From: Candidatus Schekmanbacteria bacterium RIFCSPLOWO2_02_FULL_38_14
Lineage (GTDB): Bacteria > Schekmanbacteria > GWA2-38-11
Assembly: GCA_001790855.1 (NCBI GenBank)
Contig: MGDH01000015.1
Location: 1 to 13,515 of the forward strand
Direction: 5' to 3'
DNA: 13,515 bases
The notes under the pieces were generated by a model that saw only the letters and a program-made list of their open reading frames with translations, searched no databases and was not told the DNA's origin. Shown in pieces: positions 3,214 to 11,106 of the stretch (the stretch's first letter is position 1; every line of letters begins with the position of its first letter). The position numbers and the translations under genes are program-made.

Positions 3214-4380
3214 ATGAAGCGTGAAAATTTTCTTCCCTTTTCTCTGCCTACTATTGAAGAAGATGAGATTTCTGAAGTTGTGGACTCTTTGCGTTCAGGA
3301 TGGATAACTACCGGTCCTAAGGTAATAAGGTTTGAAGATGATTTTAAAAAGTATATTGGCTCACCTCATGCAATAGCTGTTAACTCAGGAACAGCAGGGC
3401 TTCACATATCTCTCATGGCTTCAGGAATATGTGACGGAGATGAAGTTATCACAAGCCCGATGACCTTTGCAGCTACCATAAACACTATTGTTTTGCAGAG
3501 AGCAAAACCGGTTTTTGTTGATATAGACCCGGATACGTTTAATATTGATACTGAAATAATTGAAAAGAGAATAACCAGAAGGACAAAAGCGATAATCCCA
3601 ATCCATATTGCAGGGCAACCCTGCAATATGGATAAAATCATGAATATTGCTAAAAAATATAATCTTATTGTTATTGAAGATGCTGCTCACGCAGTTGGAA
3701 CTGAGTACAAAAAAATAAAAATTGGCAATATCAGCGATCTTACTGTTTTCAGTTTCCACCCAATAAAAAACATGACTACAGGTGAAGGCGGAATGATAAC
3801 GATAAAAGATGAAGTGATTGCTGATAAACTCAGGCTATTGAGGTTTCACGGAATAAGCAAAGAGGCATGGAAACGCTACGGGAAAGAAGGTTCCCCTCAG
3901 TATGAAATCCTCCTGCCCGGATTAAAATACAATATGCTTGATATCCAGGCAGCAATGGGAATTCACCAGCTAAAAAAACTGGACAGATTTATAGAAACAA
4001 GAAAAAATATTGCGCAGAAATACGACAAGGCATTGAAAGACATTCCAGAAGTAATCATTCCCGGAAGAGTTGATTATGAGTGCCTCCATGCCTGGCATCT
4101 CTATATAATAAAACTCAGGCTTGAAATGCTCAAAATCAGCAGGAATGAATTTATTGAAGAATTAAAAAAGGAAAATATCGGAACAGGCATACATTTTACC
4201 GCTGTTCATCTTAACCCCTTTTACGAAAAAGAGTTTGGGTTTAAAAGAGGGGATTTTCCAAATGCTGAATTTGCCTCTGACAGGATAATCTCTATTCCGC
4301 TTTACCCGCGAATGAAGGATGAAGACGTTGATTACGTGATAGACAAAATAAAAAAGATTGTGAAATTAAACAAGAGATAA
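3214..4380 (+). CDS. arnB: ArnB-like UDP-4-keto-pentose aminotransferase
   Basis: This is a PLP-dependent DegT/DnrJ/EryC1-family sugar aminotransferase of 388 residues, about the length of E. coli ArnB. It would convert UDP-4-keto-pentose to UDP-L-Ara4N using glutamate in the cytoplasm. Similarity to ArnB is seen by eye along the whole length: FLPFS near the start, SGWITTGPK (28-36), HAIAVNSGTAGLHISLMA, GDEVIT (75-80), RTKAIIPIHIAG, VIEDAAHAVGT with D156 (ring nitrogen contact) and FSFHPIKN with K185 as the Schiff-base lysine. Later blocks include LKYNMLDIQAA, HAWHLYIIK, GTGIHF and the C-terminal IPLYP. A weak AAGG at 3201-3204 precedes the ATG. It is the first gene of a same-strand run ordered like arnBCADT. 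The coding region contains a perfect 15-bp inverted repeat at 3601-3633. Related PseC/WecE-type activities are less likely given the neighbours. Confidence 0.9.
   Translation: MKRENFLPFSLPTIEEDEISEVVDSLRSGWITTGPKVIRFEDDFKKYIGSPHAIAVNSGTAGLHISLMASGICDGDEVITSPMTFAATINTIVLQRAKPVFVDIDPDTFNIDTEIIEKRITRRTKAIIPIHIAGQPCNMDKIMNIAKKYNLIVIEDAAHAVGTEYKKIKIGNISDLTVFSFHPIKNMTTGEGGMITIKDEVIADKLRLLRFHGISKEAWKRYGKEGSPQYEILLPGLKYNMLDIQAAMGIHQLKKLDRFIETRKNIAQKYDKALKDIPEVIIPGRVDYECLHAWHLYIIKLRLEMLKISRNEFIEELKKENIGTGIHFTAVHLNPFYEKEFGFKRGDFPNAEFASDRIISIPLYPRMKDEDVDYVIDKIKKIVKLNKR
3601..3633 (+). repeat. Perfect 15-bp inverted repeat inside the arnB-like gene
   Basis: The left arm ATCCATATTGCAGGG (3601-3615) and right arm CCCTGCAATATGGAT (3619-3633) are exact reverse complements separated only by CAA. 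The RNA would form a 15-bp hairpin with a triloop in the middle of the coding sequence. The codons specify I-H-I-A-G-Q-P-C-N-M-D, a stretch conserved in the ArnB family (H-x-A-G-x-P...D), so it is real coding sequence. There is no T-run after it, so it is not a standard intrinsic terminator. Confidence 0.9.
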
Positions 4381-4419
4381 TATAAATAATAAAACTTACA
4401 ATAAATTACTTTAAGAAAA

Positions 4420-5388
4420 ATGGAAGAAAAACAGGAAATAACAGCAGATAAAAAGAATCATCAATCACCTTACCTTAGCATAGTAGTCCCTGTTTGCAAT
4501 GAACAGGAAAACCTCGCTCATCTCTACTCAAGATTAAAAAAGACCCTTGATAGCCTCAACTCATCATATGAAATCATTTTCATTGATGATGGCAGCAGGG
4601 ATAAGTCATGGGACATCCTTGAGGATTTCAGGAACAAGGATAATCTTATAAAAATATTTCAATTTAACCGCAACTATGGTCAGCATACAGCAATTCTTGC
4701 AGGTTTTGAACTGTCAAGAGGAGAAGTAATTGTAACCATAGACGCAGACCTTCAGAACCCTCCTGAAGAAATTCCCAAGCTTTTAAAAGAGATTGAAAAT
4801 GGCCATGACGTTGTTGGAGGATTGAGAAAGAACAGAAAAGACCCTTTTTTAAGAAAATTTATATCCAAGGTAGGTAATAAGGTTCTTGCAAAAATAACTG
4901 GAATAAAGCTTAAAGATTACGGGTGCATGTTGAGGGCTTACAGGAAAGAAGTGGTAAAAAGGATATGCGATGTCAATGAGTTCTCAAGTTTTTTTATTCC
5001 GGCGCTTGCTTACACATATGCCAACAATCTGATAGAAATCGTTGTAGAACATAATGAGAGGCTTGAGGGAAAATCAAAATATAACTTATTAAAACTTGCA
5101 AAGCTTAATTTTGACATTCTGACAAGTTTTTCTCTTATACCAATTCAGATTATAACACTTTTAGGCTTCTTTATTGGTCTGACCGGAGGAACATTTGGGG
5201 GAATCCTTATCCTTTTAAAAATATTTTTCAATGCATCAAACGGATTTCTTACCCTTATTTCTATCCTTGCAGCGTTTACAGGACTTCAGGTTTTCCTTCT
5301 TGGATTAATAGGTGAATATATTGGAAGAATCTATGTTGAGGTAAGGAAAAGGCCCCGTTATATTATCAACGAAAAAAATAATTCTTGA
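4420..5388 (+). CDS. arnC: ArnC-like undecaprenyl-phosphate aminosugar transferase
   Basis: This is a GT2-family membrane glycosyltransferase of 322 residues, as in E. coli ArnC. It would transfer the formylated aminopentose from UDP to undecaprenyl phosphate on the inner face of the membrane. The GT-A domain starts with LSIVVPVCNEQENL (19-32). It continues with IIFIDDGSRD, then FNRNYGQHTAILAGF, closely matching ArnC's NRNYGQHSAIMAGF. DADLQNPPEEIP supplies the D108-x-D110 metal motif, and DYGCMLRAYR (166-175) is another near-exact ArnC block. Two membrane helices follow (about 240-267 and 277-297), ending GLIGEYIGRIYVEVRKRPRY. No strong Shine-Dalgarno sequence is seen before the ATG, 39 bp after arnB. 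The generic alternative, a dolichyl-phosphate-mannose-type GT2, is unlikely given block identity and gene order. Confidence 0.92.
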   Translation: MEEKQEITADKKNHQSPYLSIVVPVCNEQENLAHLYSRLKKTLDSLNSSYEIIFIDDGSRDKSWDILEDFRNKDNLIKIFQFNRNYGQHTAILAGFELSRGEVIVTIDADLQNPPEEIPKLLKEIENGHDVVGGLRKNRKDPFLRKFISKVGNKVLAKITGIKLKDYGCMLRAYRKEVVKRICDVNEFSSFFIPALAYTYANNLIEIVVEHNERLEGKSKYNLLKLAKLNFDILTSFSLIPIQIITLLGFFIGLTGGTFGGILILLKIFFNASNGFLTLISILAAFTGLQVFLLGLIGEYIGRIYVEVRKRPRYIINEKNNS

Positions 5389-5390
5389 AA

Positions 5391-6326
5391 ATGCGAATAT
5401 TAGTTTTTGGTTATCACAATGTTTGCCATGTATGTCTTGAAGAACTTCTCAGACTTGATGAAAACGTAATTGGTATTGTAACCCACAGCGATGACCCAAA
5501 TGAAAATATATGGTTTAAATCAGTTTATGAATTAGCTGCTAAAAACAATATTCCTGTTTTTTCCCCTTCTGATGTAAAAGAAGACAGTTTTTATGAAACA
5601 GTAAAGAAACTTGATCCGGAGATAATTTTTTCATTTTACTATCGCTATATTATACCTGAGAAGATTCTGAAAATACCTCGCTATGGTTCCATAAACCTCC
5701 ACGGTTCCCTGCTTCCAAAGTACAGAGGGAGATGCCCTGTTAACTGGGTATTGGTAAATGGCGAGAAAATAACAGGTGCGACACTTCACTATATGGAAAA
5801 AAGTCCTGACACAGGAGATATAATCTCTCAGAAAGAGGTGCCAATTTCAGATAATGACGATGCCTTTACACTCTTTAATAAAATTACTGAAGCAGCAAAT
5901 ATCCTTTTTAATGAAACATGGCCTCTCATAAAATCAGGGAAATCTAAGAGGATTCCCCAGGACCCGGCAAAGGCAACATATTTTTCAGGAAGGAAACCTG
6001 ACGACGGACTGATAGACTGGAAAAAAAGTTCAGAAGAAATTCATAACCTGATACGTGCAGTCACACACCCCTATCCCGGAGCATTTACCTTTTATAAAGG
6101 GAAAAAGCTATTTATCTGGAAATCAGTATTGATATCAGATATAGATAACTGCAATAAACTCTCAGGAACAATCTTAAAAATTGATAGTGTAAACGGGATG
6201 GTTGTCAAAACAGGTACTGATTGCATTGGAATTAAGTCCCTTCAATTTCAGGAAGAAGAAGAGATAAGAGAAAAAAAACTATATAAATATTTCTCTCATA
6301 CAGAGGGAAAACTTCTCGGAAATTAA
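5391..6326 (+). CDS. arnA: Stand-alone ArnA-type formyltransferase
   Basis: This is the N-10-formyltetrahydrofolate-dependent formyltransferase matching the N-terminal half of E. coli ArnA; it would N-formylate UDP-L-Ara4N. I chose ATG 5391 (311 residues) over an in-frame TTG at 5385. MRILVFGYHN then aligns with the ArnA start, and the catalytic residues fall at N102 and H104 (in INLHGSLLPKYRGR) and D140 (in SPDTGDII), the E. coli numbering. FSFYYRYIIP matches ArnA's FSFYYRHLIY. The C-terminal third is the OB-like domain, beginning near FSGRKPDDGLIDW and HPYPGAFTFY. The gene lies 2 bp after the arnC stop, implying coupled translation; no clear Shine-Dalgarno is visible. Unlike E. coli ArnA, it ends without the dehydrogenase domain, which is the next gene. 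The symbol denotes the domain, not the full bifunctional protein. Confidence 0.9.
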   Translation: MRILVFGYHNVCHVCLEELLRLDENVIGIVTHSDDPNENIWFKSVYELAAKNNIPVFSPSDVKEDSFYETVKKLDPEIIFSFYYRYIIPEKILKIPRYGSINLHGSLLPKYRGRCPVNWVLVNGEKITGATLHYMEKSPDTGDIISQKEVPISDNDDAFTLFNKITEAANILFNETWPLIKSGKSKRIPQDPAKATYFSGRKPDDGLIDWKKSSEEIHNLIRAVTHPYPGAFTFYKGKKLFIWKSVLISDIDNCNKLSGTILKIDSVNGMVVKTGTDCIGIKSLQFQEEEEIREKKLYKYFSHTEGKLLGN

Positions 6327-6346
6327 ATAAATAAGGAGGATTTTCA

Positions 6347-7312
6347 TTGAAAGTATTAATTACAGGAGGAGCAGGTTTTCTGGGGTCCCATCTTGGAGAT
6401 GCGTTTCTCGCAAAAGGCGATGAGGTCTTTGTTCTTGACCAGGCAAAGGATTTTAAAATCAGGCATAATCTTGGAAACCCAAAGTTCCATTACTTCCAGG
6501 ACTCAATCCTTAACGAAGAAATACTCGACAGTCTTGTTTTTAAAACAGACCTTATTTATCATATGGCTGCTGTGGTCGGTGTGGAACACTATGTTGGAGA
6601 CCCATATAATGTCTTAAATGTAAATATCAACGGAACGCAGAACGTCCTGAAGGCTGCTTTCAAATACAACAAGAAGATTATATTCACTTCCACCTCTGAA
6701 GTTTATGGCAGGAACCCGAAGGTTCCATTCAGCGAAGACGACGACAGGGTTCTTGGTTCCACAAGAATAGACAGGTGGTGCTATTCCACATCAAAGGCAG
6801 CAGGAGAACATTTCTGCTTTGCCTATTATAAAATGGGTTTGCCTGTTGTAATTTTAAGGTATTTCAATGTTTACGGACCAAGACTTGATAAAATTGATGT
6901 GGGAAGAATATTAACTATTTTTATGGGGCAGATTTTAAGAAATGAACTCCTCTCTGTCATAGGTGACGGGATGCAGACGAGGTGTTTTACTTATATAGAC
7001 GACGCAATAAAGGCAACCGTCGCAGCAGGGTTATTAAAGGAGGCTGAAGGAAAGATATTCAATGTCGGGGATGAAAAAGAAACTACAATTAAAGAACTGG
7101 CAGAGAGAATGATAAAAATCTCAGGAGCAAATACTACCATAAAATATGTGACAAAAGAATCAGTATACGGAGACAGCTATGAAGATATACAAAGGAGGGT
7201 TCCAAAGGTAGAATTAATGAACAATATTTTAAAAGTCCACGCAGAAACTTCTCTTGACGATGGGTTGAGAACGACAATCGAATGGTTTAGAGCCATAGGG
7301 AAAAACTTTTAG
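6347..7312 (+). CDS. NAD-dependent UDP-sugar dehydrogenase/decarboxylase (ArnA C-domain-like)
   Basis: This is an extended short-chain dehydrogenase of 321 residues, likely the UDP-glucuronate oxidative decarboxylase step that yields UDP-4-keto-pentose. The start is a TTG at 6347, fixed by AGGAGG at 6334-6339. A Rossmann motif GGAGFLG lies at 7-13, the catalytic STSEVYG at 115-121 (S117, E118), and Y146-x3-K150. YEDIQRRVP at 278-286 places R284 at the position of ArnA R619; S117 and E118 match ArnA S433 and E434. DxRW before Y146 and YFNVYGPRLD also resemble ArnA. It lies 20 bp after the formyltransferase gene and fills the role of the missing ArnA half. A UXS-type decarboxylase making UDP-xylose, or a GalE-like epimerase that shares the TSEVYG motif, are the alternatives; overall similarity to ArnA is moderate. 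Confidence 0.8.
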   Translation: MKVLITGGAGFLGSHLGDAFLAKGDEVFVLDQAKDFKIRHNLGNPKFHYFQDSILNEEILDSLVFKTDLIYHMAAVVGVEHYVGDPYNVLNVNINGTQNVLKAAFKYNKKIIFTSTSEVYGRNPKVPFSEDDDRVLGSTRIDRWCYSTSKAAGEHFCFAYYKMGLPVVILRYFNVYGPRLDKIDVGRILTIFMGQILRNELLSVIGDGMQTRCFTYIDDAIKATVAAGLLKEAEGKIFNVGDEKETTIKELAERMIKISGANTTIKYVTKESVYGDSYEDIQRRVPKVELMNNILKVHAETSLDDGLRTTIEWFRAIGKNF

Positions 7313-7324
7313 AAACTGGAAAAG

Positions 7325-8221
7325 ATGAACCTCAGCATAAAAGTTGATGTGGATACCTATCAGGGGATGAAAGAAGGAGTTCCTAACCTTTTAGAAATTT
7401 TCGGAAAGATGAAAATCAGGGCTTCATTTTTTATTGCTATGGGCCCTGACAATTCAGGAAAAGCAATCAAAAGAATTTTCAGAAAAGGTTTTTTAAATAA
7501 AATGCTCCGCACAAAAGCCCCGAGTGCATACGGGATAAAAACTCTATTATACGGCACTCTCCTCCCGGCACCTCTTATTGGAAAAAACTTTGATGCTCTG
7601 TTTCTGGAAATAAAAAATTCAGGGCACGAAGTCGGTATTCACGGGTACGACCATGTAAAATGGCAGGATGAACTGGATTTCATGAATTATAACGAATTTA
7701 AGGATGAGTTTAAAAAAGCTGTTGACGAATATATACGCATATTCAAAACCAACCCCACCTCATCAGCTGCCCCTGCATGGAAATGTAATGAAATAAGCTT
7801 TTCAATTGAAGATGAAAACAACCTTCTCTATCACAGCGACACAAGAGGGGAGCATCCCTATTTCGTTAAATTCTCATCTTCAATTTTCAAAACCCTTGAG
7901 ATACCAACTACCCTTCCAACGCTTGATGAGATTTACGGTCTTGAAGGCTTCTCAGAAAATAACATAATCCCCTTCTATCTCTCTCAGCTTAATAACGACA
8001 AATTGAATGTTCTGACCATCCATGCTGAAATGGAAGGAAAATGGAAAAAAGAGCTTTTTGAGGAATTTCTAAAAAAAACATCTGAACTTAACTGCAATTT
8101 TATTACACTGGAAAAAGCGGCGGGGAAATTAATGGCTTCAAAAGAAAATATTCCTGTCTGCGAAGCATCGCAGTCGGTTATACTTGGAAGAAGCGGCAAG
8201 GTCTTCTGCCAAAAACCCTGA
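7325..8221 (+). CDS. arnD: ArnD-like deformylase (polysaccharide deacetylase family)
   Basis: This is a 298-residue CE4/NodB-fold hydrolase like ArnD, which removes the formyl group from undecaprenyl-phosphate-L-Ara4FN and so makes the attachment irreversible. Visible matches are KVDVDTYQGMKEGVP (6-20), with D8 and D10 as catalytic and metal aspartates, and FFIAMGPDNSG. FLNKMLRTKAPSAYG parallels ArnD's FLWKMLRSNAASLYG. HEVGIHGYDHVKWQ carries metal ligands H106 and H110, and SDTRGEHP, IPTTLPTLDE and TIHAEMEG (H233) follow. This is a specific match to ArnD rather than to general chitooligosaccharide deacetylases. The ATG lies 12 bp after the dehydrogenase gene. Presence of ArnD implies that formylation and deformylation both occur. 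Confidence 0.92.
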   Translation: MNLSIKVDVDTYQGMKEGVPNLLEIFGKMKIRASFFIAMGPDNSGKAIKRIFRKGFLNKMLRTKAPSAYGIKTLLYGTLLPAPLIGKNFDALFLEIKNSGHEVGIHGYDHVKWQDELDFMNYNEFKDEFKKAVDEYIRIFKTNPTSSAAPAWKCNEISFSIEDENNLLYHSDTRGEHPYFVKFSSSIFKTLEIPTTLPTLDEIYGLEGFSENNIIPFYLSQLNNDKLNVLTIHAEMEGKWKKELFEEFLKKTSELNCNFITLEKAAGKLMASKENIPVCEASQSVILGRSGKVFCQKP

Positions 8222-8255
8222 ATAATGTCTCCAACACACTCTTTTTCAAAAATAT

Positions 8256-10202
8256 ATGGAAGAAAACTCAATAAATTCTCACGAAAATAGAATAATCTCT
8301 TTATTGCTTATAATCAGCATAATACTCCTTGGCACTTTCCTTCGGATTTTTATGTTAGGAGATATTGGATTTTGGGGAGATGAGATCCAGTCAGTATCAT
8401 TTGCTAAAAAAAATATATCAACACTGCTGCAGTACATCTCGAAAACAGAATTCTCCCCTCCCTTAAACTACATAGTCCTCCACTTTGCATCTTATTTTGG
8501 GAAAAGCGAATTTATATTCAGGCTTCCTCTTGCCCTTTCAGGCATAATAACAATTTATGTAATTTACAAACTTGGCAGCCTGCTTTTTACATCTAAAGAG
8601 GGACTGGTAAGCGCATTTTTGCTTGCAATCTCCCCTTTCCATACCCTCTATTCGCGCGATGCCAGAATGTATTCACTGTTCACTCTTTTCTCTTTATCTT
8701 CATATCTGTTTTTTTATCTCGCATCAAAAAATAATAAATTGTTTCTATGGATATTATATTCTTTCAGCATCACCCTTTCTCTTTACACTCACTACTTTAT
8801 GGTTTTTGTAATATTTTCCCAATTTATCATTGTCTTTATCTTTATCTCTGAAGGCGCTCAGTTTTTTGGACGAATAGCCTCAAAATTCTTTTTATCACTC
8901 GCTTTTTCTTTCCTGCTCTTTCTACCATGGATTCCATCATTGATCCGACAGTTATCTATCAATCAGCAATTCATCACAAAAGTATCAGTATCAGGAGTTC
9001 TCCTGTGGATAATTGATGAAACTTTCAGATGGCTTGGAACAGGAACATTACCCGGAATGTTTTTCTTCTTGCTGATTGTTGCCTCAGGAATTCTTTTTTC
9101 TATTAAAACCTTCAGGCACCAGACCTTCCTCCTTTTATCTGCATTCTCAATCCCAATACCTTTTACAATTTTTCTTGTAATATTTCGCAACTGGCTTTTT
9201 CAGCCAAGATACATCCTTTTCATACTCCCATTTTATTTAGTCCTTGCTGCGAGAGGAATATGCGAAACAGGAACTAGATTAAAACGCTTTAAAATAAAAG
9301 AATCTTTATCAATTTTTCTGCTGCTAGTAACTATATTCTATCTTTCACTTTCTCAGGTAGAAAATATCTTCTCCCTTGAAAAAGAAAACTGGAAAGATGC
9401 TGCTTCATATATCTCCAGAAATATGCACCACAAGGAACTTCTTATTGTTCAGCCGTCATGGGGTTTCTGGGCACTTGATTATTACAAGAGCTTGAATTAT
9501 TCTGATACATCGTTAGCAGATGAGAATATAAAAAAAACCGGTGTATGGTTTGTAAAACCCTATGATGGCAAGCCAGGAAAAGATTTAGAGAAAACCACTG
9601 GTTCACCTTTTACACTGAAAAGAAGCTTTAAAGGATGGAATACAATAAATATTTGGTATTCCTCTTCAAATCTCGAAGAATTAAACTTTCCATTTTTATC
9701 GTTTCGCAATACAAATAAAATGGAAAATAAATATGATAGAGAATTTAAAATGGACTGGTCATGGTTTTCATCATCTGGCAAATCTCCAAAGTATTCATTC
9801 TCAGAAAATTCTTTTATCCTGGTTTCAAAATCTCCGTTAAAAAACTATCTGCTTTTATCATCTCCGATTCTGCTTTCAGATTCTGACTCAGCTATAAATC
9901 ATAAATCTTTTAATGGCTTATACTGCTCAGCGAGAATCAAAGCATCAAGCCGCAAAATATTACCCAGAATGGACTTATACTTTTATAACAAAAATAAGGA
10001 AAATATATCTATTGCTGGATTGGAAACTAAAGGTTTTATGACAGGCGATTTCACCCACTGGGGATGGATAAGCGAACCTGTAAATATTCCCAGCAATGCG
10101 TTTTTCGTTAAAGTAGCTTTTGAAATACCTGAGATTGATAACGAAGGCGAATGGGTGATGTTTGATAATATTAAATTCTACGGTTTTAGCTCCAGTCCTT
10201 AG
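8256..10202 (+). CDS. GT39/ArnT-like membrane glycosyltransferase with C-terminal beta domain
   Basis: This is a 648-residue polytopic transferase of the PMT/ArnT superfamily that would use a polyprenyl-phosphate sugar on the periplasmic face. After a first membrane helix (about 12-33) comes FWGDE (39-43), the acidic loop motif of this superfamily, with D42/E43 the likely catalytic pair. SPPLNY (67-72) and SRDARMYSL (133-141), common in bacterial GT39 proteins, follow. Many membrane helices run to about residue 366, then a soluble part begins near NWKDAASYI. The last ~150 residues are beta-rich and end GEWVMFDNIKFYG (631-643), resembling the end of jelly-roll carbohydrate-binding modules; E. 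coli ArnT lacks this exact arrangement as far as I recall. It is last in the arn-like operon, so L-Ara4N transfer to lipid A is the best guess. Another acceptor is possible, so I withhold arnT. No strong Shine-Dalgarno is seen. Confidence 0.75.
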   Translation: MEENSINSHENRIISLLLIISIILLGTFLRIFMLGDIGFWGDEIQSVSFAKKNISTLLQYISKTEFSPPLNYIVLHFASYFGKSEFIFRLPLALSGIITIYVIYKLGSLLFTSKEGLVSAFLLAISPFHTLYSRDARMYSLFTLFSLSSYLFFYLASKNNKLFLWILYSFSITLSLYTHYFMVFVIFSQFIIVFIFISEGAQFFGRIASKFFLSLAFSFLLFLPWIPSLIRQLSINQQFITKVSVSGVLLWIIDETFRWLGTGTLPGMFFFLLIVASGILFSIKTFRHQTFLLLSAFSIPIPFTIFLVIFRNWLFQPRYILFILPFYLVLAARGICETGTRLKRFKIKESLSIFLLLVTIFYLSLSQVENIFSLEKENWKDAASYISRNMHHKELLIVQPSWGFWALDYYKSLNYSDTSLADENIKKTGVWFVKPYDGKPGKDLEKTTGSPFTLKRSFKGWNTINIWYSSSNLEELNFPFLSFRNTNKMENKYDREFKMDWSWFSSSGKSPKYSFSENSFILVSKSPLKNYLLLSSPILLSDSDSAINHKSFNGLYCSARIKASSRKILPRMDLYFYNKNKENISIAGLETKGFMTGDFTHWGWISEPVNIPSNAFFVKVAFEIPEIDNEGEWVMFDNIKFYGFSSSP

Positions 10203-10383: not shown

Positions 10384-11106
10384 TCATATATTGATTTTCC
10401 ATGGAATATAATAGGCTAAAATCTGCAAATTATTTGAAAATATCAGAAGCCCTATTATAACCAGCAACAATCCAGAAATTATTTCAATCTTTCTAAAATG
10501 TTTTTTTATGGATTTGAAAAGTTTAAGGAATGTGTTCATTGCAATTGCAGTAATTAAAAACGGAATCCCAAGCCCTAAAGAATAGACCGACAGGAGTAAA
10601 ATCCCCTGCAAGACTGTATCCCTTGTAGAAGCAAGGGCTAAAATTGCGCCAAGAATCGGACCAATGCATGGAGTCCATCCAAATGCAAAGGCAAATCCAA
10701 CAAAAAACGAGCCTGCAATCCCGTAAGTTTTTTTCCTGACATTAATCCTTTTTTCAATATCAAGAAATCTTATCCTGAAAATTCCCATCGTATGAAGACC
10801 AAATATTATAATTATTATTCCTGCAAGCTGAGTAAAAAGTGATAATTTTGAAAGCAAAAACTTTCCGGCTATTGTGGCAGATGCACCAAGCACCACAAAT
10901 ACAATGGAAAATCCTGCTATAAAAAAAATGGAATTCAAAGTAACTTTGTTTAAATTCTTTTTACCTTCCACTCCTTCTTTGAACTCTTCCATTGATATGC
11001 CTGATATAAAGGATATATAAGCAGGTATGAGCGGAAGCACGCACGGCGAGATAAAAGAAAATATTCCTGCAGCAAAGGCTGTAATAAACTCAATGTTATT
11101 ATTCAC
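10384..11106 (-). CDS. ccdA: CcdA-type thiol-disulfide transmembrane transporter
   Basis: This 240-residue, about six-helix inner-membrane protein of the DsbD/CcdA family carries electrons from cytoplasmic thioredoxin to periplasmic thiol proteins, often for cytochrome c maturation. Two half-repeats are visible, each with its redox cysteine: FISPCVLPLIPAYIS (C22) and GWTPCIGPILGAIL (C147). Length is typical of CcdA, without the extra domains of full DsbD. The start is GTG at 11106, with AAGGA eight bases before it. The last 8 bp of the upstream channel gene overlap this start, implying translational coupling. No thioredoxin-like partner (ResA/TlpA) or cytochrome c gene is in the window, so the actual client is unknown; the Tat- and Sec-exported redox proteins at the left end are far away and not obviously linked. 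Confidence 0.92.
   Translation of the reverse strand: MNNNIEFITAFAAGIFSFISPCVLPLIPAYISFISGISMEEFKEGVEGKKNLNKVTLNSIFFIAGFSIVFVVLGASATIAGKFLLSKLSLFTQLAGIIIIIFGLHTMGIFRIRFLDIEKRINVRKKTYGIAGSFFVGFAFAFGWTPCIGPILGAILALASTRDTVLQGILLLSVYSLGLGIPFLITAIAMNTFLKLFKSIKKHFRKIEIISGLLLVIIGLLIFSNNLQILAYYIPWKINI

Follow-up and report, generated by a model that had tools for sequence, protein, structure and literature searches.

The DNA analysed here (the window: 13,515 nucleotides of contig MGDH01000015.1 from Candidatus Schekmanbacteria bacterium RIFCSPLOWO2_02_FULL_38_14) carries an operon whose probable product is undecaprenyl-phosphate-L-Ara4N, a cationic sugar (aminoarabinose) carried on a lipid, formed through Arn chemistry in which two independent enzymes stand in for the bifunctional ArnA. 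The operon is genuine and well conserved, and varies a pathway already known. That formyltransferase (FT) and dehydrogenase (DH) are split is ordinary; the replacement of the DH and the missing ArnT are the noteworthy parts.

An arn-type operon conserved in Schekmanbacteria

ORF calling placed six close-packed genes on the + strand at 3214–10202, with gaps of 39, −4, 20, 12 and 34 bases between them, in order. A 328-base gap precedes the operon and a convergent gene (10384–11106, −) follows it. The features are:

3214–4380, +: ArnB-like PLP aminotransferase, 388 aa (predicted: UDP-4-keto-pentose to UDP-L-Ara4N)
4420–5388, +: ArnC-like GT2, predicted undecaprenyl-phosphate 4-formamido-L-arabinose transferase, 322 aa
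5385–6326, +: stand-alone ArnA1-type FT, 311–313 aa (predicted: UDP-Ara4N to UDP-Ara4FN)
6334–6339, +: AGGAGG ribosome-binding site of the DH gene, within the 20-bp FT/DH spacer (direct sequence reading)
6347–7312, +: UDP-glucuronate 4-oxidase/decarboxylase-like SDR (DH) of a clade outside ArnA-DH, 321 aa, TTG start
7325–8221, +: ArnD-like deformylase, NodB/polysaccharide deacetylase fold, 298 aa
8256–10202, +: glycosyltransferase of the GT-C (PMT_2) type, an integral membrane protein of 648 aa carrying an additional C-terminal region; not ArnT

The best NCBIfam match of the aminotransferase, which has a DegT_DnrJ_EryC1 domain, was PRK11658 (ArnB; 442.6 bits), with PseC second (409). The GT2 protein matched PRK10714 (ArnC; 320.6 bits) and the deformylase, with a Polysacc_deac_1 domain, PRK15394 (ArnD; 233 bits). 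All three fall under the curated cut-offs (443 vs 631, 321 vs 529 and 233 vs 382), yet these are the best-scoring models, and the cut-offs missed by the B, C and D homologues and by the DH are enterobacterial ones. Homologues of ArnB, ArnC, the FT, a UDP-GlcA decarboxylase-type DH and ArnD are clustered here, as expected of an Arn (Und-P-Ara4N) biosynthesis operon. This gene order recurs, FT and DH again being separate, in all four of the Schekmanbacteria genomes on which conservation in this phylum rests (G000, the window's own, and G001, G002 and G003). The operon of G001, a same-family relative, lies on contig C89; the FT alignment also matched contig MGDB01000089.1 of Candidatus Schekmanbacteria bacterium GWA2_38_11 at 3547–4473 (69%).

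A preliminary description had reported six same-strand genes colinear with arnBCADT, forming an arn-type pathway in a probably non-enterobacterial genome. The ORFs and family matches bear out the six genes and the pathway, and the host is Candidatus Schekmanbacteria. Colinearity holds for the first five genes (arnB-C-A(N)-A(C)-D) and fails at the sixth, which has neither the family match nor the signature of ArnT.

Family searches also found LpxC, LpxK and a protein of the UDP-glucose dehydrogenase (Ugd) family in the window's own genome, so that a lipid A-containing outer membrane and a supply of UDP-GlcA are plausible. We found no paper on Schekmanbacteria LPS. Scans for promoters and terminators found nothing clearly in excess of shuffles, and searches for Rfam families and tRNAs returned zero matches. 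Upstream of the operon, at 8–2885, a same-strand group encodes a NapG/NapH-like polyferredoxin, a DUF6599 protein and a DUF362 protein.

A separate observation concerns LpxC itself. In each of the four Schekmanbacteria genomes, the only LpxC lies in an open frame of 731–755 residues (L004:1489–3726 (−) in G000:C1; L155, L156 and L157 in G002, G001 and G003). The G000 protein is an NtrC-type response regulator (REC, sigma-54 AAA+ and lid) fused to LpxC, joining a lipid A enzyme to a transcription regulator. A limited literature search found no paper on such a fusion.

The formyltransferase and the FT/DH gene boundary

The FT passes the cut-off of the stand-alone family PRK06988 (357.5 bits, cut-off 316), the next model being ArnA PRK08125 (324). 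Its closest PDB matches are ArnA FT domains (E 4e-69), and residues N102, H104 and D140 are invariant with E. coli ArnA. In the FT tree it falls outside the single clade of fused ArnA proteins (100/98). The gene ends at a taa stop (6324–6326), followed by AGGAGG at 6334–6339 and the TTG start at 6347, from which the DH N-terminus reads (M)KVLITGGAGFLGSH. FT and DH are thus on separate polypeptides in the window, and the junction is a true gene boundary, exactly as the stop, AGGAGG and TTG had first been read. Since the boundary recurs in all four genomes, the gene-order survey called for in the preliminary description leaves no room for a sequencing or assembly error.

The dehydrogenase belongs to a separate branch

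The DH shares 32% identity with the E. coli ArnA DH. Its best family match, the ArnA dehydrogenase PRK11908, reached 190 bits, under the cut-off of 294; the split ArnA-type DH of locus L013 scores 569. In the DH trees, the four Schekmanbacteria proteins form one clade with those of L043, L071 and L087 (99–100/97), apart from the ArnA-DH clade, which has support of 100/100 on a branch of 2.4–3.3. Among the arn loci surveyed, this DH type occurs in Schekmanbacteria and only these three others. Constraining the window DH beside Burkholderia PbgP3 (ArnA2) and L028 gave a tree 158 log units worse (p-AU 1.9e-31), so that identity as a plain ArnA2 is rejected by the AU test as well as by the PRK11908 family cut-off. 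On these sequence comparisons, the DH represents its own branch among the UDP-GlcA decarboxylase SDRs, outside the ArnA-DH lineage.

All nine ArnA residues checked (T432, S433, E434, Y463, K467, N492, R510, Y613 and R619) are kept in all seven members of the clade, which also carry the ArnA-like motifs RW.YS.SK and YG..Y.D...R.P. UDP-GlcA oxidation and decarboxylation are therefore expected. Conservation of residues is nevertheless weaker evidence than it appears, since in EvdS6 the arginine aligned with ArnA R619 is dispensable for the keto product (PMC10338323). Two structure models were made for the DH: one from 5 sequences (pLDDT 59) was set aside and one from 23 sequences (pLDDT 89.5) was used. 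The latter matched ArnA, UAXS and UXS at Z 41–42 with other SDRs nearly tied; as ArnA-DH rows were part of its alignment and numerous SDR folds score nearly as high, the support it lends to the function is weak. A relative in Streptomyces finlayi (43% identity) adjoins a nucleotide sugar dehydrogenase, consistent with UDP-GlcA as the substrate. In the best tree the window-type clade is, with weak support, sister to ArnA-DH (85/77), while a union with UXS is not rejected (p-AU 0.143); given these placements, the clade might release UDP-xylose rather than the 4-keto sugar. The choice between 4-keto pentose and UDP-xylose is left unexplained by structures (PMC10338323).

In L043, L071 and L087 the same DH type stands in arn clusters together with ArnT-motif transferases, which ties it to the Ara4N pathway. 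It accompanies FTs from different parts of the FT tree. The L071 FT groups with those of L013 and L017, whose DHs are ArnA-type (97/94, long branch), suggesting an exchange of modules.

More distant relatives of the window DH (38–40%) were seen in L159:6302–7288 (the L097 gene), L096 and L100 (G002, G003). These SDRs keep the S/E/Y/K/R positions, alter R510 and Y613, and form a further SDR group; the G003 member lies among glycosyltransferase genes.

Split and fused ArnA across phyla

The FT alignment found 80 named loci, a set biased to FTs like the window's, so that the counts are not frequencies. FT and DH share one open frame in 53 loci and are split with an ArnA-type DH in 22 by score (including L075, a member of the fused clade whose reading frame looks broken). 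A window-type DH is present in three besides the Schekmanbacteria locus, and a DH is absent nearby in one. Groups in which split arnA is common include Syntrophaceae, Scalindua and Elusimicrobia.

With the exception of L089, the fused proteins form one nested clade in the FT tree (100/98) and in the DH tree (100/100), and split forms surround it in both, arguing that the split is ancestral and the fusion derived. The linker between FT and DH in the fused clade is 11–17 residues long and nearly always 14, which favours one fusion followed by spread over phyla. The ArnA fusion can thus be dated as one derived event that later spread. It was claimed in 2025 that the fusion is exclusive to Pseudomonadota, as a Gammaproteobacterial innovation (PMC12650200). 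We found fused FT-DH in Planctomycetota, Lentisphaerota, Kiritimatiellota, Thermodesulfobacteriota, Acidobacteriota, Auribacterota and others (loci outside Pseudomonadota include L014, L015, L019, L025, L030, L040, L045, L046, L050 and L054), which contradicts that claim. Phylum names follow NCBI's assignment of the record titles, in which the mapping of 'Deltaproteobacteria bacterium' to Myxococcota is not to be taken literally. Misbinning may affect single MAG contigs, but many independent assemblies contributed the fused loci.

Three loci stand out individually. L089:4996–8022, from an Acidobacteria MAG, has FT and DH in one frame with a 26-residue proline-rich gap, is nested among split Acidobacteria relatives (L070) and looks like a second, young fusion. 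In L075:5487–7288 (Desulfobacteraceae) FT and DH overlap in different frames and the DH match starts at model position 84, so this split is probably a frameshift. L022:5995–6912 (Dethiosulfatarculus sandiegensis) is an FT that belongs to the fused-ArnA clade but stands alone, no DH being detected up to 6 kb away; it is a candidate for true later loss of the DH half.

For the window, an FT outside the single fused clade and a DH from a separate UDP-GlcA decarboxylase SDR branch imply an arrangement that was never a fused ArnA. The preliminary description had written of 'ArnA split into two genes', either ancestral or a later fission, and had proposed domain phylogenies as the check. The FT proved to be ArnA1-like and outside the fused clade, and the DH fell in its own SDR clade. 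An ancestral split is the more likely of the two histories, fission being disfavoured by both trees, but the wording itself does not survive: one of the genes derives from another enzyme branch, and the fused form is ancestral to neither, so 'broken ArnA' is wrong.

The last gene and the acceptor

The product of 8256–10202 has a PMT_2 (GT-C) domain. It gave no match to the ArnT model NF009784 and none in a PDB sequence search, and it lacks the signature DE.RY...EKP, which is shown by the ArnT-like proteins of L043, L071, L087, E. coli and G003. Judged by its sequence it is not ArnT, and the operon encodes no ArnT (GT83) as terminal transferase. Orthologues directly follow arnD in G002 and G003; in G001 the orthologue is on another contig. 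G003 has an unlinked ArnT (L176:7555–9231) scoring 498 bits against the ArnT model, slightly below the cut-off of 567, while the unlinked GT83 proteins of G000, L164 and L168, are weaker (192 and 126 bits). There is no ArnE/ArnF flippase in the operon, and a family search limited to PF00893 found no such protein in the four genomes. Because the last gene is not ArnT, a lipid A acceptor and polymyxin resistance are not supported by the operon alone, and the intrinsic resistance first suggested for this organism is weakened. An arnBCAD cluster without ArnT should not be read as polymyxin resistance.

Proposed pathway and alternatives

Each reaction, the acceptor and the phenotype are predictions from the observed gene content and order, phylum conservation, tree positions and catalytic residues. 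Ugd, encoded elsewhere in the genome, would provide UDP-GlcA, which the SDR of 6347–7312 would oxidize at C4 and decarboxylate at C6 to UDP-4-keto-pentose. The ArnB-like enzyme would aminate this product, the FT of 5385–6326 would trap UDP-Ara4N as UDP-Ara4FN, the ArnC-like enzyme would load undecaprenyl phosphate and the ArnD-like enzyme would strip the formyl group. The non-ArnT GT-C may then pass Ara4N on to lipid A or another glycan as the envelope acceptor. Read this way, the Arn pathway has B, C, FT and D fixed, with the decarboxylase and the last transferase exchangeable.

An assembly or frameshift artefact dividing a real fused gene has a negligible probability and is ruled out: four independent genomes share the identical split, the stop, ribosome-binding site and start are clean, and nothing was found in its favour. 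Fission of a fused ArnA in the Schekmanbacteria ancestor, followed by divergence, would account for an FT-DH gene order that equals the domain order of ArnA, but is very improbable with the FT outside the fused clade (100/98), the DH excluded from the ArnA-DH clade with all its fused and split members (100/100; p-AU 1.9e-31), and the fused clade surrounded by split forms in both trees. It is somewhat less improbable, though still unlikely, that the SDR is a 4,6-dehydratase or other enzyme and the product an undecaprenyl-linked 4-amino-4,6-dideoxyhexose made under the same strategy of formyl protection. The SDR is matched by the LegB and RmlB models as well, and the PseC score of the aminotransferase (409) nearly equals that for ArnB (443). 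However, S433/E434/R619 are retained in the SDR, as are the RW and Y613 features it shares with ArnA, whereas positions 433 and 619 of the RmlB reference L129 are D and Y, respectively; the ArnC- and ArnD-type partners are Arn-specific families; and the same SDR type adjoins ArnT-motif genes in L043, L071 and L087.

For the acceptor, canonical lipid A modification, through a separate GT83/ArnT-like protein or with the GT-C as a functional ArnT and leading to cationic-peptide resistance, has a little under an even chance. It differs from the Ara4N pathway preferred here only in the acceptor, and the confidences of the two overlap. LpxC and LpxK are present, as are the ArnT of G003 and the GT83 proteins of G000; against this, the operon's own transferase shows no ArnT match or signature, and the GT83 genes are unlinked, those of G000 being distant from ArnT. 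We also suggest, more tentatively and as the less likely outcome, an Ara4N pathway in which a separate SDR lineage has replaced the ArnA dehydrogenase and a non-ArnT GT-C has replaced ArnT, the cationic sugar then reaching a surface polysaccharide or a protein instead of lipid A.

Comparison with known systems

Split arnA is already known from Burkholderia, with the same gene order. In B. cenocepacia, arnA1 and arnA2 (BCAL1933/BCAL1934) are two genes, both required for Ara4N (PMC3123600), and B. thailandensis BTH_I2193–I2189 has the order B-C-(I2191)-I2190(ArnA)-D and Ara4N-modified, colistin-resistant lipid A (PMC7835334). The window shares B-C-FT-DH-D with separate FT and DH, and its FT passes the PRK06988 cut-off. 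In contrast, the Burkholderia DH (PbgP3, PDB 3slg) lies inside the ArnA-DH clade and the window's outside, and Burkholderia has ArnT and a flippase in a second transcriptional unit whereas the window operon ends with a non-ArnT GT-C. The enterobacterial arnBCADTEF operon (E. coli K-12) agrees with the window in the logic of its five enzymatic steps and, as far as arnD, in gene order, but its ArnA is fused and ArnT, ArnE and ArnF are linked, while the window has separate FT and DH and none of these linked.

L043 (Armatimonadetes), L071 and L087 (Deltaproteobacteria MAGs) share the window's DH clade (65–66% identity) and a separate FT. Unlike the window they have ArnT-motif transferases, and their FTs lie elsewhere in the FT tree, suggesting that FT and DH were combined more than once. 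UXS and UDP-apiose/xylose synthase resemble the window DH as UDP-GlcA decarboxylase SDRs, in the E and R catalytic positions and in fold; UXS lacks its RW and Y613 features, and the window's own genome has a separate UXS-clade gene (L099).
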